Shown: in pieces, positions 31,537 through 57,174 of the stretch | Layout: each line of letters begins with the position of its first letter | How positions within the stretch are numbered: position 1 is the first letter of the stretch | Source of the DNA: Bradyrhizobium canariense | Lineage (GTDB): Bacteria > Pseudomonadota > Alphaproteobacteria > Rhizobiales > Xanthobacteraceae | Length of the DNA: 64,000 nt | Assembly (NCBI RefSeq): GCF_900105125.1 | Contig: NZ_LT629750.1 | Location: 558,001-622,000 of the forward strand | Direction: 5' to 3' | Notes under the pieces: generated by a model | The model's database searches: none | Seen by the model: the letters and a program-made list of their open reading frames with translations, nothing else | What the model was told of the DNA's origin: nothing | Program-made: the position numbers and the translations under genes

Positions 31537-32490
31537 TTACGCTCCGCGGGCACGACTAGGAGCAGAGCCAAAGCGATCCTTGAATGCGCGCGAAAAGTGG
31601 CTGCTGCTTTGAAAGCCGCAGGCCAACGCGATATTGGTCATGGTCATATTGGTCTTGTGCACAAGCTGATGGGCTTGGTTCAATCGTATCTGCAGGTAGG
31701 CTTCGTTCAAGGTTCGTGCGCTATGTTTGATAAATAGCCGTTCAAGCGAGCGAACCGATACGCCGGCAATCTTGGCAAGTTTGACTCGCGAAATTGGTTC
31801 TTCCACTGTTGCTTCCATTCTAGCCAAAACCTTGAGTACCCTGTCATCGCTGACGCCATAACGCTCCCGAAGACTCAACCGTTGCGGCTCATTGGCGGGG
31901 CGGGGCTCGGCTCGGATGAACCATTCGCTCACCTTATTCGCCAGCGCGTTTCCTTGTTCGCGTTCGATCAGTTCGATGGCGAGGTCGAGGCCCGCGATGC
32001 CGCCGGCGCAGGTCACGCGGCGGCGGTCGATGACGTAGAGGCTCGATTCGACGTGAAGCGTGGGAAACATCTCTACGAACGTTGGCCTGTGGTCCCAGTG
32101 GATGGTGACACTGTGACCCTCCAGCAGACCCGCGCGCGCCAACAGGAACGGCCCTCCGGAAACGCCGACCAGCACGGTGTTCTTCAAGGCTTGCCGCCTT
32201 AACCAAGCGAACGTCCTGGCTTCCTGAAAGGCTGTCGGATCGCCGGCTGCGAACACAAACAGCATTTCACACTGGAGCGGTTGCGAGACGCTTTGGTCGG
32301 CGAGAATCATGGCGCCATTGGAAGCGCGAACGGGTTTGCCATCGGTCGAAATGTGGACCCAGCGATAGAGCGGCTGTCCAGTAAGTGTATTGGCGGCCCG
32401 GAACGGCTCAACGATCGATGCGTACGACATCAGGGCAAAATCGTTGATCAGGAGAAGGCCGATGGTCCGGGATTCGGATGCCTTCGCCAT
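31537..32490 (-). CDS. GlxA-type AraC-family regulator
   Basis: A 317-residue regulator with an N-terminal DJ-1/PfpI-like domain (about residues 8-180, with VSGGPFLLARAGLLEGHSVT near residue 120) and a C-terminal AraC double HTH (SVRSLERLFIKHSARTLNEA, then IALACGFQSSSHFSRAFKDR). Such regulators commonly sense quaternary amines, glycine betaine or sarcosine derivatives. It is divergent from mgdA with 112 bases between, holding an inverted repeat at 32556-32582, and so is the best candidate to control the mgd operon. The frame is open to 32709, but those codons overlap the promoter region; the start MAKASESRTIG fits the family. Confidence 0.85.
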   Translation of the reverse strand: MAKASESRTIGLLLINDFALMSYASIVEPFRAANTLTGQPLYRWVHISTDGKPVRASNGAMILADQSVSQPLQCEMLFVFAAGDPTAFQEARTFAWLRRQALKNTVLVGVSGGPFLLARAGLLEGHSVTIHWDHRPTFVEMFPTLHVESSLYVIDRRRVTCAGGIAGLDLAIELIEREQGNALANKVSEWFIRAEPRPANEPQRLSLRERYGVSDDRVLKVLARMEATVEEPISRVKLAKIAGVSVRSLERLFIKHSARTLNEAYLQIRLNQAHQLVHKTNMTMTNIALACGFQSSSHFSRAFKDRFGSAPSRARGA

Positions 32491-32551
32491 TGTCGCTATC
32501 GGACCTGATTTTGTCGCTTGGGGTAAAATTCGGGTTGCTTTAACCGATATA

Positions 32552-32582
32552 CTTCTTCTCAGGCAAGTAGTTTTCCTGAGAA
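32552..32582. promoter_or_regulatory. inverted-repeat operator between glxA-type gene and mgdA
   Basis: The arms TTCTCAGG (32556-32563) and CCTGAGAA (32575-32582) are perfect complements 11 bases apart. The left arm with its flank, read on the minus strand (32566-32552), is TTGCCTGAGAAGAAG, a 12 of 15 match to the TTTCCTGATAAGAAA motif found elsewhere in the island. It lies 20 bases before the mgdA start codon. Confidence 0.55.
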
Positions 32583-32602
32583 ACGTAAGCTCGGTAAGGC
32601 AG

Positions 32603-33859
32603 ATGACGCGGTTTTCGATCTTGAGCCTGGTCCGGAATGCACTGTCCGGGCACCGCCGGTGGACGCCGACCTGGCGGGATGCATCGCCTCGGTCATCGTA
32701 CGACATCATCGTCGTCGGCGGCGGTGGCCACGGACTTGCGACCGCCTACTATCTCGCGAAAGTCCACGGTCTGCGTAACGTCGCCGTGGTCGAAAAGGGC
32801 TGGATCGGCGGCGGCAACGCCGGCCGTAACACCACGATCATTCGTTCGAACTACGGTTTGGACGGCAATACCGAATTTTACGAATGGTCAATGAAGCTCT
32901 GGGAAGGCCTGGAGCAGGAGCTCAACTACAACACCATGGTGAGCCAGCGCGGTGTGCTCAACCTCTATCACTCTGATGCACAACGCGACGCGTTCGTGCG
33001 TCGGGGGATTACGATGCGTCTCAACGGTGCGGACGCCGAATTGCTGGACGCGGAAGCGGTACAAAAAATAGCACCGTTCCTTAATTACGAACAGGCGCGC
33101 TTCCCGATCATGGGCGGGTTGCTGCAACGACGCGGGGGAACCGCCCGGCACGACGCCGTGGTGTGGGGATACGCGCGCGGCGCGTCCGATCTTGGCGTCG
33201 ACATCGTTCAGAATTGCGAAGTGACCGGCATCTTGCGCGATCATCAAGGTGCAGCCATCGGTGTTGATACGACGCGCGGCCAGATCAAGGCAAAGAAGAT
33301 CGGCTTGTCCGTGGCGGGCAGTTCATCGCGTGTCGCGGCCTTGGCCGGCTTGCGTCTGCCGATCGAGAGCCATGTCTTGCAGGCGTTCGTCAGCGAGGCG
33401 CTCAAGCCCGTCATTCCAGGCGTGATCACTTTCGGCGCGGGCCATTTCTACATCAGCCAATCCGACAAGGGCGGGCTCGTGTTTGGCGGCGATATCGACG
33501 GATACAACAGCTATGCAAGCCGCGGCAACCTGCCGACCGTGGAAGATGTCTGCGAAGGCGGCATGGCGATCATGCCCATGATCGGCCGAGCGCGCATGCT
33601 GCGGAGCTGGGGCGGAATATGCGATATGTCGATGGACGGCTCGCCGATTATCGATCGCACGCCGATCGACGGCCTCTATCTGAACGGCGGTTGGTGCTAC
33701 GGCGGGTTCAAGGCCACGCCGGCCGCGGGCTGGTGCTTCGCCCATCTTCTGGCGACGGATCGGCCCTACCAGGCGGCCGCCGCCTATCGCCTTGATCGCT
33801 TCGCGACAGGTCACCTGATCGACGAAAAGGGGCAGGGTGCCCAACCTAATCTGCACTGA
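32603..33859 (+). CDS. mgdA: N-methylglutamate dehydrogenase subunit A (SoxB-like)
   Basis: The flavin subunit of the four-part N-methylglutamate dehydrogenase, which oxidises N-methylglutamate to glutamate and hands the methyl carbon to tetrahydrofolate. The 418 residues match sarcosine oxidase beta subunits (about 415): the FAD fold YDIIVVGGGGHGLATAYYLA near residue 32, GWIGGGNAGRNTTIIRSNY, and His183 in GTARHDAVVWGYA at the position of the covalently bound FMN in heterotetrameric sarcosine oxidases. The start MTRFSIL was chosen because the upstream open frame crosses the operator region. The gene order beta-delta-alpha-gamma is that of soxBDAG. Linkage to mgsABC and gmaS favours N-methylglutamate over sarcosine as substrate. 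Confidence 0.88.
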   Translation: MTRFSILSLVRNALSGHRRWTPTWRDASPRSSYDIIVVGGGGHGLATAYYLAKVHGLRNVAVVEKGWIGGGNAGRNTTIIRSNYGLDGNTEFYEWSMKLWEGLEQELNYNTMVSQRGVLNLYHSDAQRDAFVRRGITMRLNGADAELLDAEAVQKIAPFLNYEQARFPIMGGLLQRRGGTARHDAVVWGYARGASDLGVDIVQNCEVTGILRDHQGAAIGVDTTRGQIKAKKIGLSVAGSSSRVAALAGLRLPIESHVLQAFVSEALKPVIPGVITFGAGHFYISQSDKGGLVFGGDIDGYNSYASRGNLPTVEDVCEGGMAIMPMIGRARMLRSWGGICDMSMDGSPIIDRTPIDGLYLNGGWCYGGFKATPAAGWCFAHLLATDRPYQAAAAYRLDRFATGHLIDEKGQGAQPNLH

Positions 33860-33872: not shown

Positions 33873-34124
33873 ATGCGCGTTCCATGTCCATATTGCGGTG
33901 ATCGTGACGTCCACGAATTCGTCTACCGCGGCGACGCCGCGCCCAAGCGTCCTCAATCGGACGAGGAATTCTATGACTACGTTTATCTGCGCGATAATCC
34001 GGCCGGCGAAATACGAGAACATTGGTATCACGCGCAAGGCTGCCGCAACTGGATCGTGGTGAGGCGCGATACAAGGAATCACGTCATTGTGGGCTCCATC
34101 CTCGCAAAAGAGCAAGCGCAATGA
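33873..34124 (+). CDS. mgdB: N-methylglutamate dehydrogenase subunit B (SoxD-like)
   Basis: An 83-residue zinc-binding subunit. The pattern CPYCGDRDVHEF at the N-terminus, then HWYHAQGCRNW near residue 60, supplies three Cys and a His as in the delta subunit of heterotetrameric sarcosine oxidase. It contributes structure rather than catalysis. The stop codon overlaps the start of the next subunit as ATGA, which indicates coupled translation. The start MRVPCPYCG was preferred over an upstream ATG at 33837 that overlaps mgdA. Confidence 0.88.
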   Translation: MRVPCPYCGDRDVHEFVYRGDAAPKRPQSDEEFYDYVYLRDNPAGEIREHWYHAQGCRNWIVVRRDTRNHVIVGSILAKEQAQ

Positions 34125-37078
34125 GCCGGCTGTTATCTGGAGGCGCGGTCGATCGCACGCGCGAGCTGCCTTTCACGTTCGACGGAAAATCTTATCGCGG
34201 CTATGAAGGCGATACACTCGCGTCGGCCTTGGTCGCCAACGATGTCAAGATCGTCGGCAGATCGTTCAAATATCATCGGCCCCGCGGCATATTGACGGCT
34301 GGCAGCGAAGAACCGAATGCCCTTGTCACGTTACGGTCGGGCGCTTTCGCCGAGCCAAACACGCGGGCCACGATCGTGCAATTGTTTGCCGGCCTCGAAG
34401 CGGTAAGCCAGAATCGCTGGCCGAACCTTCAATTCGACCTGATGGCGGTCAATCAGCTTGCGGCGCCGATCTTCGTCGCAGGATTTTACTACAAGACTTT
34501 TATGTGGCCCGCCAAGTTCTGGGAGAAGCTCTACGAGCCGCTCATTCGGAAGGCGGCCGGATTGGGGGCGCTGTCCACGCTGCCGGATCCCGACCGCTAC
34601 GATCGCAATCACGCGTTTTGCGACCTGCTCGTGATCGGCGGCGGACCTGCGGGTCTCACGGCGGCGCTGTCCGCGGGGCGTGCTGGGCTACGTGTGATCT
34701 TGGTTGAAGAGGACAACGCTCTCGGAGGCCGCCTGCTCTCGGAACGGCATGAAGTCGATGGCGTGCCGGGGAGCGATTGGGTGAAGCTCGCGACGGCCGA
34801 GCTGAATTCGATGCCGGCGGTCAGGCTGCTCAATCGCACGACGGTATTCGGGGTGTACGACAGCCATGAATATGGCGCGTTCGAACGCGTGTCGGATCAT
34901 CTGGCGCAGGCAACCTCAGGACAGCCGCGGCAAAGGCTCTGGAAGATCATCGCGAAGCGCGCGCTGCTGGCGACGGGCGCGATCGAACGCCCGATCGTGT
35001 TCGGAGGAAATGACCGGCCCGGCGTGATGATGGCTTCGGCGGTGTCGACCTATGTCAATCGCTTCGCGGCGGCTCCCGGCCGCAGAGCGGTAGTGTTCAC
35101 CACGACCGATAGTGGCTGGGCGACGGTTGCGGATCTCATCAGCGCCGGCGTCGAGGTCGCAGCCGTCGTCGAAGCCCGCAAGACATTGCCGGTCGCTGCC
35201 GAGCGCGTTCGTTCCGCCGGCATCGAAATTTTTGCGGGCGCCGTCATCCGGGATGTTCGGGGCAACACCGTGAGGGCCGTCGAGATTGTTGCAGCCGATG
35301 GCAGCGGGCGGCGCATCGACGCCGACTTCGTTGCGGTGTCGGGGGGCTGGAATCCATCGATTGGCATTGCGAGCAATCTGGGAGGCCGTCCAAACTGGTC
35401 GGACGAGATTCACAGCTTCGTGCCTGGCACGATGCCATCGGGCATGCAGGCCGCAGGTGCTGCGGCGGGTAATCTCTCGCTGGGCAAGGCGATTGCAAGC
35501 GGCTGGGCCGCGGCCGCGACGGCGATAGCCGATCTGGGCTTTGCGCGAGATCGCGGAACCGCGCCGACCTCAAGCGAGGATCTTGCCGAGGTTGCACCGC
35601 TCTGGCACGTCGCCACACGCAGGACCAAAGCCTTCGTCGATTTCCAGCATGACGTGACCGATGCCGACATTGATCTCGCCGCGCGTGAGGGTTTTGTCTC
35701 CATCGAACATCTCAAGCGCTATACGACCTTGGGCATGGCCACCGATCAAGGCAAGACGGGCCAATTGAACGGTCACGCCCTTCTTGCCGCGGCAACCGGG
35801 AGGACCATCGCGGAGGCGGGGACGGTGCTGTCGCGACCGCCGTACCAGCCGGTTGCGATCGGCGTGTTCGCGGGTCATCACCGCGAGGAACATTTTCGTC
35901 CCGAAAGACGAACGGCCAGTCACGAATGGGCGATCTCGCGCTCGGCCAATTTCGTCGATGCGGGACAGTGGAAGCGCGCGCAATGGTACACCAGGCCCGG
36001 CGAGCAGAGCTGGCTGGAGACGGTGAATCGCGAAGTGAGGGCGACGCGGGAAGGGGTCGGGATTTGCGACGTTTCGACCCTGGGGAAAATCGACGTTCAC
36101 GGGCCTGACGCCGCGGTCCTGCTCGATCGCCTCTACGTCAACATGTTCTCCACTCTTCCGGTCGGAAAAGCGCGTTACGGCCTGATGTTGCGGGAAGACG
36201 GTTTTGTGTTGGACGACGGAACCGCGACGCGCTTGGCCGACGACTATTTCTTCGTGACGACCACCACGGCCAACGCCGCCAAGATCATGCAGCACATCGA
36301 TTACGCGCGTCAGGTGTTGTGGCCCGACCTAGATGTTCAGGCCACCTCGGTTACCGAGCAATGGTCGACCTATTCGGTCGCAGGCCCACATTCACGGGGT
36401 TTGCTGCAAACGATGTTTCCGGAGCTCGATCTGTCGAACGCCAAATTTCCCTATATGGCTGCGACCCAGTTTCGCTGGCGCAACGCGACCGCCCGAATTT
36501 TCCGGCTGTCTTTTTCCGGAGAGCTTGCCTACGAGGTCAGCGTTCCCGCCAATTTGGGCGACGCGCTGATCCGTGCGCTGTTCGAGGCCGGTAGCGCGTT
36601 CGCGGTGGTGCCGTACGGAACCGAAGCGCTCAGCGTGATGCGCATCGAAAAAGGACACCCGGCCGGCAACGAACTGAACGGACAGACGACGGCCGGCGAC
36701 CTCGGCATGGCCAGAATGGTGTCGAAGAAGAAAGACTTCATCGGACGCGTGATGGCCTCTCGCCCCGGTCTTGTTGCAACTGATCGTCCGGCCCTGGTGG
36801 GAATCAAGCCGACCGGCGCGAACGTCCAGTTGCGGGGCGGCGGGCATTTACTCGAAAAGGGCGCGGCGGCGCGCGCCGGCAACGATCAGGGCTACGTCAC
36901 CTCAGTCGCATTTTCTCCGACGCTGGGCCATTCGATTGGCCTCGCACTGCTGAAGTTGGGTTCGCAACGTCACGGCGAGATTGTTCGGGTTTACGATCCC
37001 TTGCGTGGCACCGACACCGAAGTGGAGGTCTGCAATCCCGTGTTTGTCGATCCTGAAGGGGTTCGTGTCCGTGGCTAA
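34121..37078 (+). CDS. mgdC: N-methylglutamate dehydrogenase subunit C (SoxA-like)
   Basis: The 985-residue large subunit. In order it has a ferredoxin-like N-terminal domain (about residues 12-90, ELPFTFDGKSYRGYEGDTLA), a dinucleotide-binding domain (DLLVIGGGPAGLTAALSAGR near residue 170) and a C-terminal folate-binding aminomethyltransferase domain (about residues 600-985, with VMRIEKGHPAGNELNGQTT). The last domain receives the methyl carbon on tetrahydrofolate and yields 5,10-methylene-THF. The length fits SoxA (about 970-1000). It overlaps mgdB by four bases and mgdD by a few codons. Confidence 0.9.
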   Translation: MSRLLSGGAVDRTRELPFTFDGKSYRGYEGDTLASALVANDVKIVGRSFKYHRPRGILTAGSEEPNALVTLRSGAFAEPNTRATIVQLFAGLEAVSQNRWPNLQFDLMAVNQLAAPIFVAGFYYKTFMWPAKFWEKLYEPLIRKAAGLGALSTLPDPDRYDRNHAFCDLLVIGGGPAGLTAALSAGRAGLRVILVEEDNALGGRLLSERHEVDGVPGSDWVKLATAELNSMPAVRLLNRTTVFGVYDSHEYGAFERVSDHLAQATSGQPRQRLWKIIAKRALLATGAIERPIVFGGNDRPGVMMASAVSTYVNRFAAAPGRRAVVFTTTDSGWATVADLISAGVEVAAVVEARKTLPVAAERVRSAGIEIFAGAVIRDVRGNTVRAVEIVAADGSGRRIDADFVAVSGGWNPSIGIASNLGGRPNWSDEIHSFVPGTMPSGMQAAGAAAGNLSLGKAIASGWAAAATAIADLGFARDRGTAPTSSEDLAEVAPLWHVATRRTKAFVDFQHDVTDADIDLAAREGFVSIEHLKRYTTLGMATDQGKTGQLNGHALLAAATGRTIAEAGTVLSRPPYQPVAIGVFAGHHREEHFRPERRTASHEWAISRSANFVDAGQWKRAQWYTRPGEQSWLETVNREVRATREGVGICDVSTLGKIDVHGPDAAVLLDRLYVNMFSTLPVGKARYGLMLREDGFVLDDGTATRLADDYFFVTTTTANAAKIMQHIDYARQVLWPDLDVQATSVTEQWSTYSVAGPHSRGLLQTMFPELDLSNAKFPYMAATQFRWRNATARIFRLSFSGELAYEVSVPANLGDALIRALFEAGSAFAVVPYGTEALSVMRIEKGHPAGNELNGQTTAGDLGMARMVSKKKDFIGRVMASRPGLVATDRPALVGIKPTGANVQLRGGGHLLEKGAAARAGNDQGYVTSVAFSPTLGHSIGLALLKLGSQRHGEIVRVYDPLRGTDTEVEVCNPVFVDPEGVRVRG

Positions 37079-37571
37079 TGATCTCGACATCGTCGAACGC
37101 GACGGCCTTGGGCTGGCCACTGTGATGGCCCGAAAGGGCGTCACGGCACCGGCCATCGGCGCGGCGCTCGGGTTGGACGCGCCACGCGGTCCCACATCGG
37201 CGAGCAACGGTCAATTGAGACTGATCGGTACGGGCCCCGGCATGTGGATGGCGATCGCCGACACGGCCGGTGCGGACTGGGTGGATGGGTTGCGCACCAG
37301 GCTGACCGGGATCGCATCGGTTTCCGATCAGTCCGGCGGTTACGTCATTTTTCGGATTTCCGGGCCGTCGGCGCGGTCAACATTGCAAAAAGGCGTGTTC
37401 ATCGATCTCGATCCATCGGTGTTCGGAGCAGGATCGGTTGCGACAACCGTCGTGGCCCATATCGGCGTAACGCTTTGGCAGGTGGATGCGGCCCCCACTT
37501 TTGAGGCCGCGCTGTTCCGAAGCCTCTCCCGCAGTTTCCGCGAATGGCTCGAGTCCGTCGCAACTCGATAA
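37065..37571 (+). CDS. mgdD: N-methylglutamate dehydrogenase subunit D (SoxG-like)
   Basis: A gamma-type subunit of about 168 residues. Family features are MWMAIADTAGADWV around residue 62, SDQSGGYVIFRISGPSAR around residue 90, and LWQVDAAPTFEAALFRSLSRSF near the C-terminus, all found in SoxG proteins. The gene overlaps the end of mgdC; GTG at 37065 (after AAGGGG) and GTG at 37071 are both possible starts. It completes the four-subunit enzyme. Confidence 0.82.
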   Translation: MSVANDLDIVERDGLGLATVMARKGVTAPAIGAALGLDAPRGPTSASNGQLRLIGTGPGMWMAIADTAGADWVDGLRTRLTGIASVSDQSGGYVIFRISGPSARSTLQKGVFIDLDPSVFGAGSVATTVVAHIGVTLWQVDAAPTFEAALFRSLSRSFREWLESVATR

Positions 37572-37592: not shown

Positions 37593-38450
37593 GTGTCCAA
37601 CGCGTTTATTCTTGCCCTGTCATGCCTAAATCAGCCGGGGATCGTCGCACGGGTAACCTCCGAACTGTTTTCCCAGGGAGGCGACATCCTGGAAGCTCAT
37701 CAATATGACGATATCGAAACCGGCAAGTTCTTCACCCGTATCGTCTGCAATTTCTCAAAAGAGATCAGGGAAAGCGCACTGAGAGCGAGGTTCGAGCCGA
37801 TTGCTCGACATTACGGGATGGAGTGGACCATTCGTCCCAGGGACGTACGAAGCAAGGTGTTGCTCATGGCCTCTAAATTCGATCATTGCCTTGTGGACCT
37901 TCTCTATCGTGTCCGCACCGATGAGTTGAAGATGGATGTCGTCGGCATCATTTCCAACCACCCGCGGGAGACTTACACCAATTCCGATTTCGGCGAAATT
38001 CCCTTTCATTTTCTTCCAGTCACCCGGGACACCAAGACCGCGCAGGAAGCGCAGGTCAAGAACATCGTCAACGCGACCGAGGCGGAACTCGTCGTTCTGG
38101 CCCGCTATATGCAAATCTTGTCGGATGACATGACGTCCTTTCTCTCGGGCCGCTGCATCAACATCCATCACAGCTTTCTTCCGGGGTTCAAGGGAGCCAA
38201 GCCTTACCATCAAGCGCATGGCCGTGGCGTGAAATTGATCGGCGCGACGGCGCATTACGTTACTGCGGAACTCGATGAAGGGCCGATCATCGAACAGGAC
38301 GTCGAACGCATCAGTCACCGGGACAGTGTCGACGATCTTGTGCGCAAAGGACGCGATATAGAACGACGCGTGCTTGCGCGCGCGGTAACGTTTCATCTGG
38401 AAGGTCGCGCGCTGATGAATGGCCACAAAACGGTGGTCTTTAGGGGTTGA
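37593..38450 (+). CDS. purU: formyltetrahydrofolate deformylase
   Basis: Hydrolyses 10-formyl-THF to formate and THF. The 285 residues have an N-terminal ACT domain (ILALSCLNQPGIVARVTSEL, about residues 4-85) and a C-terminal formyl-transferase fold with the catalytic triad in INIHHSFLPGFKGA and the Asp of ELDEGPIIEQD. The start is GTG at 37593 with GGAGG upstream, 22 bases after mgdD. With folD it forms the route from the methylene-THF made by MgdABCD to formate, sparing THF. Some homologs in these clusters may serve the same role under a different name. Confidence 0.92.
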   Translation: MSNAFILALSCLNQPGIVARVTSELFSQGGDILEAHQYDDIETGKFFTRIVCNFSKEIRESALRARFEPIARHYGMEWTIRPRDVRSKVLLMASKFDHCLVDLLYRVRTDELKMDVVGIISNHPRETYTNSDFGEIPFHFLPVTRDTKTAQEAQVKNIVNATEAELVVLARYMQILSDDMTSFLSGRCINIHHSFLPGFKGAKPYHQAHGRGVKLIGATAHYVTAELDEGPIIEQDVERISHRDSVDDLVRKGRDIERRVLARAVTFHLEGRALMNGHKTVVFRG

Positions 38451-38453: not shown

Positions 38454-39317
38454 ATGGTGGCGAAGATAATCGACGGAAAAGCTATTTCCGAAAAAATGCG
38501 AGCCGGACTTGCAAAGGAAGTTTCAAATCTGGTCAGACATATGCCGAAACCGGGGCTGGCGGTTATTGTCGTCGGAGACGATCCGGCGAGCCATGTATAT
38601 GTCAGATCGAAGGCGAAACAGACGATCGAAGTGGGGATGGAGTCATTTGAATACCAATTACCCGCCAGCGCTTCTGAACACCAACTTCTCGATCTCGTCG
38701 CGACGCTCAACAACGACGAACGCGTGGACGGTATCTTGGTTCAACTTCCTCTCCCTCATCATATCAATGCAGAGAAGGTTTTGAGAGCCATCGCACCCGC
38801 AAAGGACGTGGACGGCTTTCATCCTTTAAATGTTGGACTCGTCGCGACAGGATCCGGTGGAATGGTGCCATGCACCCCGCTTGGGTCGATGATCCTGATC
38901 AAATCAGTTCGTGACAATATCGCTGGCTTGAATGCGGTTATTGTGGGTCGATCCAACATTGTCGGAAAGCCAATGGCGCAGCTTTTGCTGCAGGAGAGCT
39001 GCACCGTCACGATCGCGCATTCCCGCACCGCGGATCTGCCCGCGGTTGTCGGGGCTGCCGACATCCTGGTAGCCGCAGTTGGCCGGCCCGAGATGGTCCG
39101 AGGGACGTGGGTTAAACCCGGATCAGTCGTGATCGATGTCGGCATCAACCGTGTTGCCGCGCCGGACGGAAAATCGAAGCTTGTCGGTGATGTAGCATTT
39201 GGGGAATGTCTGGACCGGGCGGCCGCAATCACCCCGGTTCCGGGTGGCGTTGGCCCGATGACGATATCCTGTCTGCTTCAGAACACCTTGCGGGCTGCGA
39301 CTGCTCGTCGCGCCTGA
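38454..39317 (+). CDS. folD: methylene-THF dehydrogenase / methenyl-THF cyclohydrolase
   Basis: A bifunctional enzyme that oxidises 5,10-methylene-THF to the methenyl form with NADP and then opens it to 10-formyl-THF. The 287 residues show the YVRSKAKQT lysine region, [14 protein letters not shown] near residue 82, the cofactor motif [17 protein letters not shown] near residue 165, and [16 protein letters not shown] at the C-terminus. It starts 4 bases after the purU stop, so it is cotranscribed. It may be a second, pathway-specific folD beside a housekeeping copy elsewhere. Confidence 0.94.
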
Positions 39318-39318: not shown

Positions 39319-39687
39319 ATGGTCTGCTTGAAACCAGATAGTTCCCGTTTGGTGATCTTTGTGCGGGAGCTCGACCTCCCGGCACATGTCGGCCTGTACG
39401 ATCATGAGCATGGTCATACGCAACCCCTTATCTTCGATGTCGAGGTGACATTAAATGGGGCAGGTGACGAGGGAATTTCTTCGACAGTTGACTACGACAA
39501 AATCGTTCGGATTGTCCAAGACGTGCTAGCGAAAGGTCATCATTTGCTGCTGGAGACTATCGCGAAGCGCGTATGCGCAGAGCTCTTCGAAGATCACAGA
39601 GTAAAACAAATCAATGTCAGGATAACAAAGCCGAGCGCGCTGAAGCTGGCTCGTTCTGCTGGAATTGTCTGGTCTGAATCTCGATAG
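39319..39687 (+). CDS. folB: dihydroneopterin aldolase
   Basis: A 122-residue tetrahydrofolate-biosynthesis enzyme of the tunnelling (T-fold) family. Features are VRELDLPAHVGLYDHEHGHTQ at the N-terminus, VDYDKIVRIVQDVLAKGHH, LLETIAKRVCAELF with the conserved Glu, and VRITKPSAL near the end. It begins one base after the folD stop. Its presence in the operon suggests that C1 transfer on methylamine raises demand for folate. Confidence 0.88.
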   Translation: MVCLKPDSSRLVIFVRELDLPAHVGLYDHEHGHTQPLIFDVEVTLNGAGDEGISSTVDYDKIVRIVQDVLAKGHHLLLETIAKRVCAELFEDHRVKQINVRITKPSALKLARSAGIVWSESR

Positions 39688-41675: not shown

Positions 41676-41725
41676 CCGATCAATCAGTTCGTGTTTCATC
41701 CTGGCTTGAATAGGTGCTTTCCGAA

Positions 41726-47389: not shown

Positions 47390-47452
47390 AGTTCGGACCG
47401 TGATGCCATGTCCTGGCATCACGGCCGCAATCGGCTTGCGACGGAGCGGGTA

Positions 47453-50244: not shown

Positions 50245-50246
50245 CG

Positions 50247-50945
50247 ATGCTTTTGTCGATGGATCGCGTCACCTCCTATTATGGCAAAACGCCTATCCTG
50301 AAGGACTTTTCGTTCGGGGTCCAGCAAGGCAAATGCGTTTGTGTGCTGGGCCGTAATGGCGTCGGCAAGACCACCCTGATGCGGACGATCATGGGACTGA
50401 CCGATCGTTCCGTCGGCGACATCGCCATCGAAGGGCAAAACATCAATTCATCTCCCACCTATCTCCGGGCAAAGCTCGGGATCGGCTACGTTCCGCAGGG
50501 GCGGGGAATTCTTTCGGAATTTACCGTTCGGGAAAACATTCTCCTGGGGACCTTCGCGCGCCACGACGGTCGTTCGGAGATACCCGAGATTTGCCTTCAG
50601 ATGTTCCCCGATCTGAAGGTTAGTCTCGACCGCCGGGCAGGTCTTCTGTCCGGCGGTCAAAAACAGCAACTCGCGATCGCCCGTGCGCTTGCAGTCGATC
50701 CGAAGATTCTTCTGCTCGACGAGCCGACCGAAGGCATCCAGCCGAACATCGTCCACGAGATCGGCGAGACCTTGCTTACGCTCAATCGCAAGTTCGGCAT
50801 CACGCTGCTGTTGACTGAACAGCACATCCGGGTCGCGCGACGGCTCGGAGACACGTTCCTCATGGTCGATAACGGGCGCGTGGTCGCAAACGGACCGATG
50901 GCCGAACTAACCGACGGCGTCATCCACAAATACCTCACCATCTAG
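50247..50945 (+). CDS. ABC transporter ATP-binding protein (UrtE/LivF type)
   Basis: A 232-residue ATPase. Walker A is GRNGVGKTTLMRTIMG near residue 34, the signature is LLSGGQKQQLAIARALAVDP near residue 133, and Walker B is ILLLDEPTEGIQPNIV. It starts 2 bases after the first ATPase stop; a TTG at 50241 overlapping that stop is an alternative start. It completes the importer. DmfA1 follows after 18 bases, so the importer and the dmf genes are probably one transcript. Confidence 0.9.
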   Translation: MLLSMDRVTSYYGKTPILKDFSFGVQQGKCVCVLGRNGVGKTTLMRTIMGLTDRSVGDIAIEGQNINSSPTYLRAKLGIGYVPQGRGILSEFTVRENILLGTFARHDGRSEIPEICLQMFPDLKVSLDRRAGLLSGGQKQQLAIARALAVDPKILLLDEPTEGIQPNIVHEIGETLLTLNRKFGITLLLTEQHIRVARRLGDTFLMVDNGRVVANGPMAELTDGVIHKYLTI

Positions 50946-50963: not shown

Positions 50964-51404
50964 ATGATTCCGATCCCACGGAAGTCTTCCCCCGATGCCA
51001 AGCGCATGATCGACGAGCACAAGGAGTGCATCGATTCCATGAAGGGAGTTGCCGGCAATAGCGTGCTCAAATGCGCAACGCCCGGCGATACCACCACGGT
51101 GACCGGCGGCATTCACGAGGACTTTCAGCTCAACCGCGTTCTGCTGCGCATGCGCGCCCAGCCGGCCAAGGGCAAGCTCGTCGTCGTGTGCACCAAGGTC
51201 GAGAAGGAATGGCGCATCGCGCGGCTCTCGGGCATTCGGGGGGTGCCTCCGGAGTTCGCCACCGACAAGGTCTATGACAACGAACAGGACCCCCAGCACG
51301 ACATCTTCCTGATGCGGCTAGAAGAGTTCGCCGAGACCGACGGTTTTCCGGAGCACTTCCGCGAGGGGTGGAAGCGACGGGATGATATGTGGACCGTGAC
51401 CTGA
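50964..51404 (+). CDS. dmfA1: probable N,N-dimethylformamidase small (alpha) subunit
   Basis: A 146-residue protein directly before the large subunit, the order known for dmfA1-dmfA2. Its C-terminal half (EKEWRIARLSGIRGVPPEF, then HDIFLMRLEEFAE) resembles, from memory, the corresponding end of the 132-residue small subunit of characterised dimethylformamidases (EREW..RIA, then HAVFLRRIED). The N-terminal half (about residues 1-70) does not obviously match. In the known enzyme the small subunit is helical and wraps the catalytic subunit. Symbol and function are inferred; a search with the Paracoccus small subunit would settle it. Confidence 0.6.
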   Translation: MIPIPRKSSPDAKRMIDEHKECIDSMKGVAGNSVLKCATPGDTTTVTGGIHEDFQLNRVLLRMRAQPAKGKLVVVCTKVEKEWRIARLSGIRGVPPEFATDKVYDNEQDPQHDIFLMRLEEFAETDGFPEHFREGWKRRDDMWTVT

Positions 51405-51446: not shown

Positions 51447-53846
51447 ATGACGTGGATGAAGATTACCGGCTATGCGGACAAGTTCAGCGTCCATCCGGGG
51501 GATACGATCAAGTTTTTTGTCAATTGCGACGGGCCTGCCGAATACCAGGCAGAAATCGTCAAGATGATTCACGCCGACACCAATCCGCGCGGTCCTGGAT
51601 TCATCGAGGAGTCGATCAAGGCCACGTGCGACGGTACCTACAAGGGAATGAAGCAGGAGATCTACAGCGGCTCCTATGGCTACGTAGCCGACAAGCCGCA
51701 ATTCTGCGTCGAAAGCGTGACGCTACAGTGCTGGATCTGGCCGACCACGCCGAAGACGCATCCCAAATACTGGAAGCACGGCGCGCAGGGCCTGGTCACA
51801 AAATGGCTCAATGGCAAGGGATACGGCCTCTTCATCAATGAGGATGGATGCGTTGAATTCCGCGTCAATGACCAGGTCATCTCGACGGGTGCGCCGCTGC
51901 GCGATCATGCCTGGCATTTCGTGGCGGCATCGTTCGACGCCAAGACCGGCGAAGCTATTCTCTATCACGAGCCGCAGATCGTGTACGCACTCGATCCGGA
52001 GATCCCGCCGGTCAAGAAGAAGCTCGCCGCCAAGCTGGCCTACACGCCGGGCACACCGACGGTGATCGCCGGCTATTGCGGCGCGTTGAGCGACGCGCCG
52101 CAGGCCAAGGCGTCGGTGCCGGCCGGCATCCTCATCAAGGGGCATTACAACGGCAAGATCGACAGTCCGCGGATCTCCAACCGTGCCTTGAGCCGACTCG
52201 AGATCGAGACGATGAAGCTCGGCGCGCAGCCGGGGCTCAGCGAGCGACGAAATTCCGGCCCGACCGGCAAACTCTCCGAGGCGATCGTCGCCTCATGGGA
52301 CTTTTCGGACGGCATCAACACCCTCGCCGGCAAGGACAAGGGGCCCTATCTGTTTCACGCCACCATCGTCAATTGTCCGACGCGGGCCATGACCGGCTAC
52401 AATTGGGAAGGCCAGGTGTTCGACTGGAAGACTGCGCCCGAACAATATGGCGCCATCCATTTTCACGACGACGATATCGACGACGCGCGCTGGGCCACCA
52501 GCTTCGAATGGACGGTGCCGAAGGGGACCAGCAGCAAGTTCTACGCCGCCAAACTGACCTCGAAGGATGGCGGGGAGGATTACATCCCGTTCTGGGTGGT
52601 GCCGCGGGTTGGCGAGGAGACCGCGAAGATCGCCTACATGGTCCCCACCATCAGCTACATGGCCTATGCCAACGAGCACCTTGCCAACAATGCTGGCGGC
52701 GCGGAACTTCTCGTCTATCGCGTGCCGATCATGCAGCAACAGAACATGTTCCTGTCGGAGCACCGTGAATACGGCGGATCGATCTACGATACCCACACGG
52801 ACGGCAGCGGCCTCTGCCTTTCCTCGCGGTTGCGGCCGATCCTCAGCATCCGGCCGAAATACGATCACTTCCTGGCGCAGGCGCCCTGGCAATATCCGGC
52901 GGACCTGCACATGATCTACTGGCTGGAGAAGAAGGGCTACGAGTACGACATCATCACCGATGAGGATGTCACCTATGACGGCCTCGCGCGGCTCGAAAAC
53001 TACAACGTCATCATCACGGGGTCGCATCCCGAGCACAACAGCGGACCGCAGCTCGATGCGCTCCACAACTACATGCAGCGTGGCGGCCGCTTCATGTATA
53101 TGGGCGCCGACGGCTGGTACTGGGTTCACTCCTACCATCCCGGCTATGACGGTCTGGGTCGCGGCATCGTCACCGAGATGAGGCGCTGCGAGTCCGGCAT
53201 CCGTACCTGGCGGGCCGATCCCGGCGAGTACTATCACCAGGGAACCGGCGAACTCGGCGGCATGTGGCGCTTCCGGGGCCGCTATCTGCACACAATCGCG
53301 GGTACTGGTATGTCGTCGGAAGGCTTCGATATTTCCAGTTACTACTCGCGCACGCCGGAAAGCAACGACGAACGCGTGGCCTGGGCCTTTGAAGGCATTA
53401 CCTACGACGAGAAGCTCGGCAATTTCGGTCTGGTCGGCGGCGGTGCCGCCGGCACCGAGCTCGACATCGTCGACACCATGCTCGGCAGTCCGCCCCACAC
53501 TCTCGTGGTTGCAACCTCGGCCGGTCGGCACACCGAAGGCTACCTGCTGGTCATGGAGGATTATGGCTTCAACCAGCAAGGTCTGGACGGAACGCAGCAT
53601 CCACGTGTTCGCTCGGATATCGCCTACCACGAGACGCCGAACGGCGGCGCTTCGTTTGCCTTCTCGTCGATCGCCTTCTGCGGCGCGCTGCCGTGGAACA
53701 ACGGCGACAACAATATCTCGACGCTGGTCGGCAACGTGCTTAACCGCTTCATGAAGGATGGTCCGCTGCCGACGCCGAGTCCGGCGGCGATCATTCATCG
53801 CGGTCGTGCCGATTACGACCAGCCGATGAACAAGGCTCGAAAGTAG
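51447..53846 (+). CDS. dmfA2: N,N-dimethylformamidase large (beta) subunit
   Basis: The catalytic subunit of dimethylformamidase, which hydrolyses N,N-dimethylformamide to formate and dimethylamine. Its 799 residues compare with about 760 in the characterised enzymes. It has a lectin-like jelly-roll region (about residues 90-270, around LQCWIWPTTPKTHPKYW and HAWHFVAASFDAKTG) and the C-terminal family domain (about residues 330-770). The known iron site uses two Tyr and one Glu; candidates here are Tyr407 (ISYMAYANEH), Tyr447 or Tyr442 (HREYGGSIYDTHTDGSG) and Glu529 (GSHPEHNSG). No signal peptide, so it is cytoplasmic. Substrate range (dimethyl- versus N-methylformamide) cannot be read from the sequence. 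Confidence 0.87.
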   Translation: MTWMKITGYADKFSVHPGDTIKFFVNCDGPAEYQAEIVKMIHADTNPRGPGFIEESIKATCDGTYKGMKQEIYSGSYGYVADKPQFCVESVTLQCWIWPTTPKTHPKYWKHGAQGLVTKWLNGKGYGLFINEDGCVEFRVNDQVISTGAPLRDHAWHFVAASFDAKTGEAILYHEPQIVYALDPEIPPVKKKLAAKLAYTPGTPTVIAGYCGALSDAPQAKASVPAGILIKGHYNGKIDSPRISNRALSRLEIETMKLGAQPGLSERRNSGPTGKLSEAIVASWDFSDGINTLAGKDKGPYLFHATIVNCPTRAMTGYNWEGQVFDWKTAPEQYGAIHFHDDDIDDARWATSFEWTVPKGTSSKFYAAKLTSKDGGEDYIPFWVVPRVGEETAKIAYMVPTISYMAYANEHLANNAGGAELLVYRVPIMQQQNMFLSEHREYGGSIYDTHTDGSGLCLSSRLRPILSIRPKYDHFLAQAPWQYPADLHMIYWLEKKGYEYDIITDEDVTYDGLARLENYNVIITGSHPEHNSGPQLDALHNYMQRGGRFMYMGADGWYWVHSYHPGYDGLGRGIVTEMRRCESGIRTWRADPGEYYHQGTGELGGMWRFRGRYLHTIAGTGMSSEGFDISSYYSRTPESNDERVAWAFEGITYDEKLGNFGLVGGGAAGTELDIVDTMLGSPPHTLVVATSAGRHTEGYLLVMEDYGFNQQGLDGTQHPRVRSDIAYHETPNGGASFAFSSIAFCGALPWNNGDNNISTLVGNVLNRFMKDGPLPTPSPAAIIHRGRADYDQPMNKARK

Positions 53847-53919: not shown

Positions 53920-54957
53920 ATGTTGGCTCATCCCGATACGGTCTTTATCGACGAAGGCATCGATTTTCTCAATCCACAACTCTATTCGGCGTGTCGCGCC
54001 CCATTCGGGATGGCGACGGTTCTTCCCCGCCGCGCCTACACGTCGGAGGTGTTTCAGCGTCTCGAAAATGAGAAGGTCTGGACGCGGGATTGGGTCTGTA
54101 TCGGCACGGCGCCCGAAATTGCCAATCCTCTCGATCTTCTGCCCTACACGATCGGCCAGCATGCCATTCATGTTCAGAGATCGGAGGATGGCGAACTGAT
54201 CGGACGCTTCAACAAGGCCCAGCACGGCGGCTGTCGCGCCATTCCGGCACAATGCCGGACCGGCAAGAAGACCAAGTGTTCCTACACATCGTGTGGTTAC
54301 AGCCGTGACAGCGAGGTGATTCACGGCGAATCCCTCTCCGAGATGACGCCGCAGATGGGGCAATTTCTGGGTGCCATCCCGGAGCGTCTTCTGCCGGTGA
54401 AGGTCAAGACCTGCGGACCGCTGATTTTCGCCAACATCGATCCAACGCCTGGAACAAAGCAAACCCTGCACGGTCCGGAATGGACCGAGAATTTGGTGCG
54501 TCTGGAAGGCCATTGGCAGGAACACCGGGCGAACTGGAAGCTGGCTGGGGCGGCTATTGTCGATGTAGCGCGTTCCTGCCTGAGCGGCGGTGGTGGCGCC
54601 ACCAACTACGTCAGTGCCGAATGGGCTTTCCCGAATCTCATCCTAGTCCGGTCACGCCATGCCACGCTCGTAGTGGTGTTGCAGCCGACCGCGATGGATC
54701 GGACGCTCTGGCGATTGTCGTTCTTTGCCCAGCCGGAGCTTTCGCATTCAACGCATGAGGTTGCCTGCGGCAAGCTGCTGGGCCTGCTCGACCAGGCGTC
54801 AGCGGTTGCGAAGTCGCTGCAGTCGGAAATCGAGATGTCGCTGGCATCGGACCTCACGGAGCGCACCCGCGCGGGCTGGTCATTCAATCAAAGGCTGATT
54901 GGACGGATCGCGGAACACCATGTCGCCTATTGGAATGCACCATTGATGCGGGCTTGA
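53920..54957 (+). CDS. Rieske-oxygenase-like protein lacking the standard ligands
   Basis: A 345-residue homolog of ring-hydroxylating oxygenase alpha subunits: the N-terminus (RRAYTSEVFQRLENEKVWTR, then DWVCIGTAPEIANP) and domain length fit. In the Rieske site the usual Cys-x-His and Cys-x2-His are changed: the first pair reads A100-Q-H102 and the second reads C120-S-Y-T. Four cysteines, C105, C112, C120 and C125, lie within 21 residues. In the catalytic domain the 2-His-1-carboxylate motif is missing: after NWKLAGAAIVDVARSC there is no His. It therefore cannot work as a normal oxygenase; it might bind another cluster or zinc, or act as a partner protein. The frame is intact and in the dmf operon (73-base gap). 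Confidence 0.75.
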   Translation: MLAHPDTVFIDEGIDFLNPQLYSACRAPFGMATVLPRRAYTSEVFQRLENEKVWTRDWVCIGTAPEIANPLDLLPYTIGQHAIHVQRSEDGELIGRFNKAQHGGCRAIPAQCRTGKKTKCSYTSCGYSRDSEVIHGESLSEMTPQMGQFLGAIPERLLPVKVKTCGPLIFANIDPTPGTKQTLHGPEWTENLVRLEGHWQEHRANWKLAGAAIVDVARSCLSGGGGATNYVSAEWAFPNLILVRSRHATLVVVLQPTAMDRTLWRLSFFAQPELSHSTHEVACGKLLGLLDQASAVAKSLQSEIEMSLASDLTERTRAGWSFNQRLIGRIAEHHVAYWNAPLMRA

Positions 54958-54970: not shown

Positions 54971-55276
54971 ATGATTCTCAGCGTGCAACAGGTCAAGTAC
55001 GAATTCCTCGCCTATATCAAGGAATTCGATGAGACGTTTTCCAACTGGTGCGTCGGCATCTCCGATTCCCCGAAGCAAACCCTGTTTGAACGGCATGGCG
55101 TGCGCGATGACGCGGATCCCTGGCTGTACAAGCAACTCTTGACCCATCGTGCGGCGCGGACCGTCTACGACTATTTCGTCGAGCATCTGAAGACGGCGGG
55201 GATTCAGCCGGCGGCTAGCTCGAATGATTTCGACTGCGTCTATCTGTTCAAGATGGCGACGCATACGCGGCAATGA
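54971..55276 (+). CDS. short conserved hypothetical protein
   Basis: A 101-residue protein. The pattern NWCVGISDSPKQTLFERHGV, then PWLYKQLLTHRAARTVYDYF and CVYLFKM, resembles from memory a family of roughly 100-residue proteins with a GIY-YIG-like layout (W-x-VGI, then an alpha-helical RTVYDYF). The N-terminal helix MILSVQQVKYEFLAYIKEFD is amphipathic. It lies 13 bases after the Rieske-like gene and 10 before the Sel1 gene, so it is in the operon. I first considered it as the dimethylformamidase small subunit, but it does not resemble that protein. Confidence 0.55.
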   Translation: MILSVQQVKYEFLAYIKEFDETFSNWCVGISDSPKQTLFERHGVRDDADPWLYKQLLTHRAARTVYDYFVEHLKTAGIQPAASSNDFDCVYLFKMATHTRQ

Positions 55277-55286: not shown

Positions 55287-55928
55287 ATGTTGACCACCGC
55301 CGATGGTGAGGCCGCCTTCAACGACCGCAATTACGAGAAGGCGCGCGAGATCTGGGAACCGCTAGCGGAGCGCGGCCAGGCCGAGGCATGGCTGGGCTCG
55401 CTTTATGCCAACGGGCTTGGAACCGAGCGGGACGCGGCGCGCGCCTTTGCGCTTTACCGGCGCGCAGCAGAAAAAGGCAACCCGCTTGCGGCCAACAACG
55501 TAGCGGTGATGTATGCCAAGGGTGACGGCGTCGCGATCGATCCTGCTGAAGCCGCATCATGGTTTCGCCGGGCCGCCGAACAGGGCGATGCGTTCGGCCA
55601 GTTCAACTACGCGGTCGCCTTGACCAAGGGGCTCGGCATCACCGTCGACCTGCCGCAGGCCGTCGAGTGGTACCGTAAGGCTGCGCAGGGCGGTCACTAT
55701 CCGTCTCAGGCGCGTCTTGGCTATTGCTACGCCAAGGGCCTCGGCACGGCGATCGATCGTATCGAGGCGTTTGTCTGGCTCAGCGCCGCCGCGCGGCACG
55801 GCGTGGGGCTCGCAATGGCCGAACTCGAGGAAATCGTGCGAGCCATGGACGAAGAAGAGAGGCTGGAAGCTCGGCGGCGCCTCGCCGAGCGGCTCGGATC
55901 TCAAGGGACGACGCGGTTGTCGGCCTGA
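55287..55928 (+). CDS. Sel1-repeat protein
   Basis: A 213-residue solenoid of about five Sel1-like repeats (AEAWLGSLYANGLGTERDAA, then LAANNVAVMYAKGDGVAIDP, GQFNYAVALTKGLGITVDL and others), ending with an acidic/basic helix. Sel1 proteins are cytoplasmic or periplasmic scaffolds for protein-protein contacts; here no signal peptide is visible. It starts 10 bases after the preceding gene. An upstream start at 55224 overlaps that gene and was rejected. A role in assembling the dmf enzyme or the Rieske-like protein is conceivable only by neighbourhood. Confidence 0.8.
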   Translation: MLTTADGEAAFNDRNYEKAREIWEPLAERGQAEAWLGSLYANGLGTERDAARAFALYRRAAEKGNPLAANNVAVMYAKGDGVAIDPAEAASWFRRAAEQGDAFGQFNYAVALTKGLGITVDLPQAVEWYRKAAQGGHYPSQARLGYCYAKGLGTAIDRIEAFVWLSAAARHGVGLAMAELEEIVRAMDEEERLEARRRLAERLGSQGTTRLSA

Positions 55929-56219
55929 CGGCCGCACGCCCGTTCACGCAGCGGCTGGTGCAGGCAGAGCCAAAAGCTGCCGATGCCTTGTCCAAGGCCG
56001 GCTACTCCAAGGCCGGCTACGACCTGAGCGAGCTGGCGCCGTCCCAGTGAGGAGGTCATCAGCGCACGGGGAGCAACTCCCGATAGGCGACTTATGTGCG
56101 ATCAAATGGCTCCCCATGGACGAGGATGGCCTGTCGCTTCTTTCGCAGTCTTTTTCTTTTGCCGAAGGTCAATAGCTCGGCTGCGATGTCGCTCCTCCTG
56201 ATGACGCGCGATGGCCTTG
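55929..56219. other. degraded DNA between the Sel1 gene and the gmaS remnant
   Basis: In the frame that ends at 56050 a Pro/Ala-rich peptide with the tandem SKAGYSKAGYDLSELAPSQ is open, but it has no start of its own (it overlaps the Sel1 gene). It may be the tail of a lost gene. Nothing else is recognised. Confidence 0.4.
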
Positions 56220-56437
56220 TGTGCACACCGACCTATTCGGGGCGCAAGCGTGCGAAGGCTGGTGCCCGCGTCGGCGATATCGAAAATGCAGCAGAACGGC
56301 GCCGACTTTGCCGGTTTCGCGACCCGGCTCGACATGACGCTGGCGCATCTCGATATGTTTGCGATGTCTGAGGCACCAGGAGTGGAACAGCTATACCGCG
56401 CACGTCACGCAATGGGAAAGGGACGCTCGACATCTGA
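56220..56437 (+). pseudogene. gmaS: internally deleted gmaS copy
   Basis: About 150 bases (56223-56371) match the intact gmaS codons for TDLFGAQ through DMTLAHLDMF, with frameshifts; then the sequence jumps at about 56372 to the last 22 codons (EWNSYTAHVTQWERDA) and the stop (56435-56437, ATCTGA as compared with ATTTGA in the intact gene). About 1.1 kb of the middle is missing, as are the first 15 codons. It precedes the second XRE-cupin gene just as the intact gmaS precedes the first, though the intact pair has an aldolase pseudogene between. Confidence 0.85.
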
Positions 56438-56502
56438 AACCGTCTTCGGTTGAAGCGCAGCGCGCAGTATGGCGCGATCGCGCAACTTGCCGCTGGAGAC
56501 AG

Positions 56503-57174
56503 TCAGCTTCGTCGCGGATAGATGATGATGGACAGATATGTCATGGGCGCCTTGATCAATTCTTCGGGGCCATGGCGTCCGGCAGCATCGAAGAACAGGG
56601 AATCTCCCGGATCCAGGACGTAACTGCGGTCAGCGTGGCGATATCGGACCTTGCCTGTCAGCATGTAGATGAACTCGACGCCAGCATGCCGGAAGTCGAT
56701 ATAGGGCTCGGCATCGGCTTTGAGGGTGATGAGATAGGGCTCCACGATGATCTCGCCACCGAGCGAGTGCCCGAGCAGATCGTACATATGCCCAGCCTTG
56801 GTGCCGCGCCGTTCGATCCGCACGCCCGCTCCCGCCTTGACGAAGGAGCAGTCGCGCTGCTCGCCGGTCTCGCGAAACAGTCCGGCGATCGGAACGTTCA
56901 AAGCCTTTGCCAGGGCCGACAGCGTGGAGAGAGAAGGAGAGATCGAGCCGTTCTCGATCTTCGACAGCATTCCGGTCGAGATGCCGGAAGCAGCACCCAG
57001 TTCCGAGACGGTCAGGTCAAAGCTTTTTCGAAGCCGCCTGACCTCGGCGCCGATTTCGGATTCGAGGGTTGGTGCCGCCTCTTTCGGCGCGGACGAGCCC
57101 GTCAGAAGCACGCTGTCTTTTTTTCTTGGCGCAACAACGGCTTTCCGACTTTGAACGACGGCTTTCTTCACCAT
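56503..57174 (-). CDS. XRE-family regulator with C-terminal cupin (second paralog)
   Basis: A 223-residue regulator of the same layout as the one at 45085-45747: an HTH around residues 50-100 (LTVSELGAASGISTGMLSKI, then ENGSISPSLSTLSALAKALN) and a cupin around residues 130-220 (IDFRHAGVEFIYMLTGKVRY, then VLDPGDSLFFDAAGRHGPEE). The two share KIENGxISPSLSTL and end in YLSIIIYPRR. The N-terminus is Lys-rich and differs. A perfect palindrome TTTCCTGTAAGGAAA lies 73 bases upstream, which suggests autoregulation. The frame is open to 57231; MVKKAVVQ is preferred. Confidence 0.87.
   Translation of the reverse strand: MVKKAVVQSRKAVVAPRKKDSVLLTGSSAPKEAAPTLESEIGAEVRRLRKSFDLTVSELGAASGISTGMLSKIENGSISPSLSTLSALAKALNVPIAGLFRETGEQRDCSFVKAGAGVRIERRGTKAGHMYDLLGHSLGGEIIVEPYLITLKADAEPYIDFRHAGVEFIYMLTGKVRYRHADRSYVLDPGDSLFFDAAGRHGPEELIKAPMTYLSIIIYPRRS

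Follow-up and report, generated by a model that had tools for sequence, protein, structure and literature searches.

In the N-methylglutamate (NMG) pathway, GmaS and MgsABC convert methylamine into N-methylglutamate, MgdABCD carries the methyl group to methylene-tetrahydrofolate (methylene-THF), and FolD and PurU release it as formate. Synteny of the NMG cluster has been mentioned for Methylobacterium (PMC5017803). In Paracoccus aminophilus, the NMG genes are located on pAMI6 and the dmf genes on pAMI2 and pAMI5, all separate replicons (PMC4543880). P. aminovorans JCM 7685 is described as breaking down N,N-dimethylformamide (DMF) and then using the NMG pathway (PMC11381386), which means that this metabolic chain is already known from a single strain. 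Here, we analyze an island at 31.5–57.2 kb of a 64,000-nucleotide stretch of Bradyrhizobium canariense DNA (NZ_LT629750.1, positions 558,001 to 622,000; the window), in which NMG genes lie beside an importer and a dmf-like module. The host genome is a 7.84-Mb single contig.

The island begins with a GbdR-like regulator, followed by mgdABCD, purU, folD, folB, mgsABC, gmaS, an XRE-cupin regulator and a UrtABCDE-like importer. After the importer come dmfA1, dmfA2, rskL, f8, sel1, a gmaS remnant and a second XRE-cupin regulator. The NMG part is the known pathway. The amide part is a little-studied module common to many bacteria, which probably use it to eat natural N-methyl amides rather than DMF. 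In the open-access passages and paper listings examined, which leave out subscription papers, we found neither an account of the module with rskL nor one of NMG genes lying beside it. A metformin study whose key cluster holds agmatinase homologues (PMC9699525) and a paper that briefly notes a dimethylformamidase close to rhodopsin genes (PMC10308929) have no bearing on the island.

The DmfA2 clade stands apart from dimethylformamidases

The amide part of the island consists of five genes downstream of the importer, all on the plus strand.

50964..51404, plus strand: dmfA1-like small subunit (79 of 80 clade loci; matches no family in Pfam or NCBIfam)
51447..53846, plus strand: dmfA2-clade large subunit with LamG and DMFA2_C (PF20254 296 bits; 541 bits to Paracoccus dimethylformamidase 6lvb)
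53920..54957, plus strand: rskL, Rieske-oxygenase-like protein (weak Rieske oxygenase matches; predicted fold)
54971..55276, plus strand: f8, 101-residue orphan family (all 80 clade loci; no Pfam family)
55287..55928, plus strand: sel1, Sel1-repeat protein (PF08238, four repeats; 79 of 80 loci)

The Paracoccus dimethylformamidase (DMFase) DmfA1A2 (pAMI2; PDB 6lvb) resembles the window pair in its two subunits, the DMFA2_C relationship, the 2-Tyr-1-Glu site, and residues H519, E657 and F693. The window protein differs in sharing only about 40% identity with it and in the replacement of N547 by aspartate.

A scan of genome contigs yielded 204 confirmed relatives, and the best 80 of them were taken as the clade loci. 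These loci are 73–94% identical by best segment, come from Alpha-, Beta- and Gammaproteobacteria, and often belong to methylotroph genera (among them Methylobacterium, Methylopila, Hyphomicrobium, Methyloversatilis, Hansschlegelia and Xanthobacter). In a protein search, the best 119 of 3486 matches (query excluded) were 75–95% identical over 99–100% of the query, and the closest organism-named protein among the matches listed was that of Bradyrhizobium sp. Arg237L (94%). Among 100 related genomes, identity falls from 75% to 44% with no values between. Identity is about 72–95% within the clade and about 40% to true DMFases, being 39.7% to that of pAMI2 and 37.7% to the pLVM1 copy of Methylobacterium sp. 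DM1. In the DmfA2 tree, which includes one long row (L098), the window copy falls among Nitrobacteraceae, grouping with Bradyrhizobium, Rhodopseudomonas and Bauldia (support 98/97).

The iron ligands of the window DmfA2 are Y407, Y447 and E529, and D555 occupies the place of N547. We aligned 84 clade sequences (the window, the 80 loci, L009, L010 and L098). All of them keep the DMFase residues Y399, Y440, E521, H519, E657 and F693, and all carry aspartate at the position of the essential N547, which is asparagine in 12 of 12 non-clade homologues, including those of pAMI2 and pLVM1. The N-acetyl-(R)-β-phenylalanine acylase (8i5a), a member of the same superfamily (407 bits), likewise keeps asparagine at this position of the alignment. 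The N547A mutant of the Paracoccus DMFase is inactive (PMC7686228). The change from asparagine to aspartate may alter the substrate or the chemistry of DmfA2.

The pAMI5 copy of P. aminophilus is itself a clade member, 71.7% identical to the window DmfA2, with aspartate at the N547 place and with rskL and f8 following. It differs from the window in having an AmiS/UreI-type channel and AmiC-like and two-component regulation, with neither sel1 nor annotated NMG genes in the 32-kb stretch. The pAMI5 dmfA1A2 genes were reported as having no found link to DMF use, and a strain lacking pAMI2 did not grow on DMF (PMC4543880). Given the separate clade, the aspartate and the pAMI5 report, a plain DMFase was rejected, and the clade enzyme should not be called one. 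An earlier note on this DNA had read dmfA2 as a dimethylformamidase gene, which we do not retain. That note had also named grouping with proteins of other known function as a refutation of its reading; the separation from DMFases holds, while no clade member of known function was found. Clade genes annotated as N,N-dimethylformamidase are probably misnamed, and such labels deserve a warning.

Two further observations concern other DmfA2 homologues. The L015 DmfA2 copy, from a tandem non-clade pair (L127/L128, genome G048), has cysteine at the Y440 place and glycine at the E657 place, and is perhaps inactive. On a Burkholderia vietnamiensis G4 plasmid (L101:3634-10247), a DmfA2 homologue lies beside an amino-acid ATP-binding cassette (ABC) importer and D-amino-acid genes, hinting that this branch may act on N-acyl amino acids.

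A fixed five-gene module with a pseudo-Rieske partner

Profile searches over the 80 clade loci found rskL and f8 in 80 each, and dmfA1 and sel1 in 79 each. These searches gave all locus counts, and gene-order clustering, in which real genes were mixed with antisense open reading frames, served only as a guide. The locus without dmfA1 is L078, whose dmfA2 match starts at contig base 93; in the other 79, dmfA1 lies directly upstream of dmfA2. The locus without sel1 is L036, on a contig that ends soon past f8. Behind dmfA1-dmfA2-rskL, 56 loci carry sel1-f8 and 19 carry f8-sel1. Among the five remaining orders, L036 and L078 are cut at contig ends, that of L023 is apparent only, caused by overlapping open frames, and L044 and L069 carry f8 on the opposite strand, upstream of dmfA1. 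Overall, f8 is downstream of rskL in 78 of the 80.

The rskL and f8 genes are constant in the clade and sel1 is nearly so, whereas pAMI2 has none of the three. Across an even class sample of 289 genomes, rskL (at E 1e-20 or better) is present in all three that carry a clade DmfA2 and in no other, the 43 with other DmfA2s alone included. A dmfA1-like gene gives a weak match upstream of five of twelve non-clade DmfA2s, and no match on pAMI2 at E 1e-5.

Rieske oxygenase alpha subunits usually bind their cluster through a C-x-H ... C-x-x-H motif and hold iron in a 2-His-1-carboxylate triad. Sequence matches between RskL and Rieske oxygenases are weak (41 and 40 bits); PF00848 stays under its cut-off, and the Pfam scan gave no match to the PF00355 Rieske domain. 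The AlphaFold2 model of RskL (pLDDT 85.4, pTM 0.88) shares the fold. Its best PDB match in Foldseek is the carnitine monooxygenase CntA (E 5e-14, TM 0.57, root-mean-square deviation 9.4 Å, 14% identity), and the 50 matches listed are Rieske-type oxygenases, with loose superpositions (TM about 0.53–0.61, deviations of 7–11 Å).

The usual Rieske ligands and the triad are gone in RskL, so it was rejected as a functional Rieske oxygenase. The window protein instead has A-Q-H-G-G-C ... C-S-Y-T-S-C, with four new cysteines (C105, C112, C120 and C125) that are invariant in 84 of 84 sequences (85 aligned rows minus L011, a canonical Rieske oxygenase). They are also invariant in 87 of 87 rows of a chosen alignment, which took 86 of 120 listed homologues and left out short or odd ones. 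The cysteine loop of the model, about residues 101–130, has low confidence (51–55), so a single site formed by the four cysteines is only a possibility.

A canonical Rieske oxygenase (CRHRG...CPYH, HCPNIH) together with ABC importer genes adjoins a non-clade DmfA2 in an order-level relative (L124:5661-9260). Its H-C-P-N-I-H stretch has no counterpart in the four RskL sequences aligned with it. This arrangement suggests a source-like state from which RskL may have arisen. The dmf part of the island is a DMFase-related module with a pseudo-Rieske partner, of which no characterized member was found.

The NMG genes are linked to the module repeatedly

The NMG and folate genes of the island were identified by family scans.

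32603..33859, plus strand: mgdA (soxB-like), N-methylglutamate dehydrogenase subunit (TIGR01373 680 bits, cut-off 529; start picked by reading)
33873..34124, plus strand: mgdB, soxD-like (PF04267 103.9 bits)
34121..37078, plus strand: mgdC, soxA-like (TIGR01372 1358 bits, cut-off 1164)
37065..37571, plus strand: mgdD, soxG-like, start approximate (TIGR01375 81.7 bits, well under the cut-off of 143.95)
37593..38450, plus strand: purU, formyl-THF deformylase (TIGR00655 325 bits, over cut-off)
38454..39317, plus strand: folD (NF010785 443 bits, over cut-off)
39319..39687, plus strand: folB-like (TIGR00525 70.6 bits, slightly under the equivalog cut-off of 72.15)
40090..40983, plus strand: mgsA, glutamine amidotransferase-like (glutamine amidotransferase families and neighborhood)
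40986..41675, plus strand: mgsB, GXGXG (PF01493 over cut-off)
41714..43048, plus strand: mgsC, glutamate-synthase-like flavin mononucleotide subunit (family scan; tree)
43082..44389, plus strand: gmaS, gamma-glutamylmethylamide synthetase type (TIGR03105 673 bits, cut-off 470)

Every gene of the set gmaS, mgsABC and mgdABCD is present and open; mgdD scores under its family cut-off and is in place. The scans bear out the genes that the earlier note had named (gmaS, mgsABC, mgdABCD, purU, folD, folB, the importer and the dmf genes), approximately where it had placed them, and add rskL, f8, sel1 and the gmaS remnant (56217-56427), which it had missed. Compared with the NMG clusters of methylotrophs, the window has the same complete gene set, with purU and folD directly after mgdD, and differs in the neighbors of that set, an amide/urea importer on the one hand and a dmf-like module on the other.

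Clade-genome counts were taken from 50 of the 80 loci, and MgsC was scored by eye from match tables, with one genome showing only MgsC fragments (G373) scored negative. MgsC at 68% identity or more occurs in 44 of the 50 clade genomes, in 16 of the 43 genomes of the class sample whose DmfA2s are all non-clade, and in 20 of 243 without DmfA2 at E 1e-50 (Fisher p 3e-7 and 4e-30, respectively, against the clade genomes). At least one genome occurs in both the class sample and the 50-genome clade sample (identical coordinates in G230 and G119). In 13 of the 44 MgsC-positive genomes, MgsC lies within 25 kb of DmfA2 (3.3–22 kb), and about 0.4 would be expected for 5-Mb genomes. The linked cases belong to six families: Nitrobacteraceae, Hyphomicrobiaceae, Aurantimonadaceae, Burkholderiaceae, Oxalobacteraceae and Pseudomonadaceae. 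NMG genes lie within the 10-kb flanks of loci L018-L025, L084, L057, L073, L079 and L085. Within the genus, a clade DmfA2 occurs in one of 59 genomes (G024), where MgsC is 14 kb away, and MgsC occurs in seven of the 59.

The union had been thought unusual in the earlier note, and it could also have been unique to this genome. Neither view survives, as the same union is found in other genomes of six families and the linkage of importer and dmf genes is common, with a UrtB-like gene in 65 of the 80 loci. What does stand of that note is that uptake, amide cleavage and methylamine oxidation can be written as one linked chain, and co-occurrence together with repeated linkage in six families backs a functional tie.

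For the window, the two trees disagree strongly. The DmfA2 grouping given above is not that of MgsC, in whose tree (31 rows, covering part of the genomes) the window groups with Chelatococcus and Rhodopseudomonas B29 (99/97). Forcing the window MgsC together with the Bradyrhizobium, Rhodopseudomonas and Bauldia group was rejected (approximately unbiased test, p-AU 1.4e-60; the tree was already known when the group was chosen). As similar dmf modules thus stand beside different pathway sets, the linkage between the dmf and NMG genes has probably been remade.

A separate case is contig C572 of G048 (L127/L128), where two tandem non-clade DmfA2 genes lie about 9 kb from an mgsABC-gmaS set.

The importer and the likely substrate

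The importer directly precedes the dmf genes.

46073..47389, plus strand: substrate-binding protein, UrtA/AmiC-like, with a twin-arginine translocation signal (UrtA 332 bits, cut-off 493 not reached)
47408..48355, plus strand: UrtB-like permease (over cut-off)
48391..49491, plus strand: UrtC-like permease (over cut-off, scanned within the longer open reading frame 47485-49491)
49501..50244, plus strand: UrtD-like ATPase (305.5 bits, cut-off 304.1)
50241..50945, plus strand: UrtE-like ATPase (284.3 bits, cut-off 285.8 narrowly missed)

Like the Urt urea importers, the window system is a five-gene ABC importer with a related binding protein; the Ami/Fmd short-chain amide importers are also comparable. 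Against the NCBIfam equivalog cut-offs for Urt, B, C and D pass, A falls clearly under and E narrowly under, so the five subunits do not all qualify as Urt. The binding protein is related to both urea-binding proteins and AmiC. The neighbors of the 80 clade loci include, besides the UrtB-like genes, an AmiC-like sensor in 20, an AmiR-like protein in 14, an aliphatic amidase in 10 and a urease alpha subunit in 21; the amidase was named by NCBIfam, and AmiC, AmiR and urease by reading. AmiS/UreI was found in none of the 80 with one query at a strict E-value, which carries little weight, and the pAMI5 locus has this channel.

Upstream of the importer-dmf module, several loci (among them L092:58-1101 and L094:998-1972) have an aliphatic amidase together with a GvpN-like AAA protein (under cut-off), adjoining another long protein.

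The Paracoccus DMFase has a catalytic efficiency of 6167 for N-methylformamide and 257 for DMF, a 24-fold difference (PMC7686228). Because that enzyme itself prefers N-methylformamide, this compound is the first candidate substrate. The search for dimethylamine routes was limited to PF11927, the family of Dmm/HODM dimethylamine demethylases; it is missing from the window's genome and likewise from seven Bradyrhizobium, Afipia and Rhodopseudomonas genomes (G100-G106). We infer that an N-monomethyl substrate, yielding methylamine directly, fits best. N-methylurea is considered the main alternative, and N-methylacetamide and amidines are also candidates.

Proposed route and alternative explanations

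The island is real and recurrent, and it is probably functional. We propose that it serves to import a small amide or urea bearing a single N-methyl group (N-methylformamide is the likeliest candidate), to break this compound down to methylamine and to oxidize the methylamine through the NMG and folate steps; we give this proposal an even chance of being right. The UrtABCDE-like importer would bring in the N-methyl amide or urea, and the DmfA1-DmfA2-clade iron hydrolase, with its 2-Tyr-1-Glu site, would hydrolyze it to methylamine plus formate, or plus a different acid where the acyl part differs. GmaS and MgsABC would then form N-methylglutamate, and MgdABCD would oxidize the methyl group, giving methylene-THF, from which FolD and PurU would lead on to formate, with the nitrogen retained. 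RskL, f8 and Sel1 may be dedicated accessories of the clade enzyme, and RskL could be a metal- or cluster-binding helper, acting in assembly or stabilization of the iron site rather than as an oxygenase. If so, methylotrophs and soil bacteria would have a widespread natural route by which N-methyl amides or ureas yield methylamine. The island also offers a module of five genes, including those for an orphan protein and a pseudo-Rieske partner, that is open to direct functional tests.

On the other hand, several observations weigh against this proposal. The tie to NMG genes is not specific to the clade, as genomes with other DmfA2s are also enriched in MgsC (16 of 43 against 20 of 243, p 4e-6). 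No lineage matching was applied to the samples, and numerous clade genomes belong to methylotroph genera, which inflates the co-occurrence. In 31 of the 44 MgsC-positive clade genomes, MgsC is farther than 25 kb away or on another contig, and six of the 50 clade genomes, all metagenome-assembled, are without this MgsC type. PF11927 is present in 23 of the 50, so dimethylamine would be manageable there. DMFase-type amide hydrolysis is not assured in a clade that has aspartate where N547A inactivates the Paracoccus enzyme (PMC7686228). Finally, in view of the urease and amidase company, the cargo of the importer could be urea or plain amides.

This last point leads to the alternative that fares best, although we consider it rather improbable: the DmfA clade may hydrolyze unsubstituted small amides or urea for nitrogen, and its linkage to methylamine genes would reflect co-regulated nitrogen scavenging with no product-substrate link. 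The urease, aliphatic amidase, AmiC/AmiR-like and AmiS/UreI neighbors fit such a role. However, amidase and urease, where present, already handle plain amides and urea in the same loci, and the NMG genes are both enriched and independently linked.

It is unlikely that the dmf module and the pathway genes are mere neighbors in a recombining region, without joint function. An IS110-family transposase near the island, the gmaS remnant, the duplicated XRE gene and the rearranged blocks speak for such a history, as does the single clade DmfA2 among the 59 genomes of the genus. Chance proximity would not readily account for linkage repeated in six families, for different MgsC lineages beside similar dmf modules, or for the non-clade DmfA2 pair of G048, which also lies 9 kb from MgsC.

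A bolder possibility, which we likewise regard as doubtful, is that the D555 clade and RskL form a new enzyme system. RskL would be a Rieske oxygenase that has lost its two metal sites and, with four cysteines in their stead, has become the dedicated cluster- or metal-bearing partner of the 2-Tyr-1-Glu enzyme. The pair would then perform chemistry not known for dimethylformamidases, acting on another substrate class, for example ureas or amidines, or by redox-assisted C-N cleavage, and methylotrophs would use it widely to obtain methylamine.

A true DMF island, in which DmfA2 would split DMF to dimethylamine for demethylation elsewhere and entry into the NMG pathway, is very unlikely: the 541 bits to the Paracoccus DMFase, the six residues kept in all 84 sequences and the chain described in P. 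aminovorans JCM 7685 (PMC11381386) favor it, but N547, whose replacement in N547A inactivates the enzyme (PMC7686228), is aspartate throughout the clade, the pAMI5 member was reported as unlinked to DMF use while DMF growth was lost with pAMI2 (PMC4543880), and PF11927 is absent from the genome.

Regulators and other features of the window

Three regulators and a decayed gene complete the island.

31537..32709, minus strand: GbdR/FtrA-like AraC regulator (NF052371 285.5 bits, cut-off 480)
45085..45834, minus strand: XRE-cupin regulator 1, divergent to the importer (HTH_3 and Cupin_2)
56217..56427, plus strand: gmaS remnant, decayed (stretches matching residues 18–76 and 412–431)
56503..57231, minus strand: XRE-cupin regulator 2 (60% identical to XRE-cupin regulator 1)

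The three regulators that the earlier note had listed are real open reading frames, and they may control the island. The domain match of the GbdR/FtrA-like protein spans residues 73–388, and from this extent its true start is probably near 32493.

In G024, gmaS is directly followed by the second XRE gene, an intact form of the remnant arrangement at 56.2–57.2 kb of the window. Given the decay of gmaS beside XRE-cupin regulator 2 in the window and this intact pairing, the mgs-gmaS block seems to have been moved, or duplicated and lost. By composition, no sharp island boundary is seen, with 57–62% G+C in all sixteen 4-kb steps of the window. The IS110-family transposase (28195-29298) precedes the island by a few kb. 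A second glutamine synthetase gene is located near the left end of the window, at 329-1861 (PF00120 448 bits).

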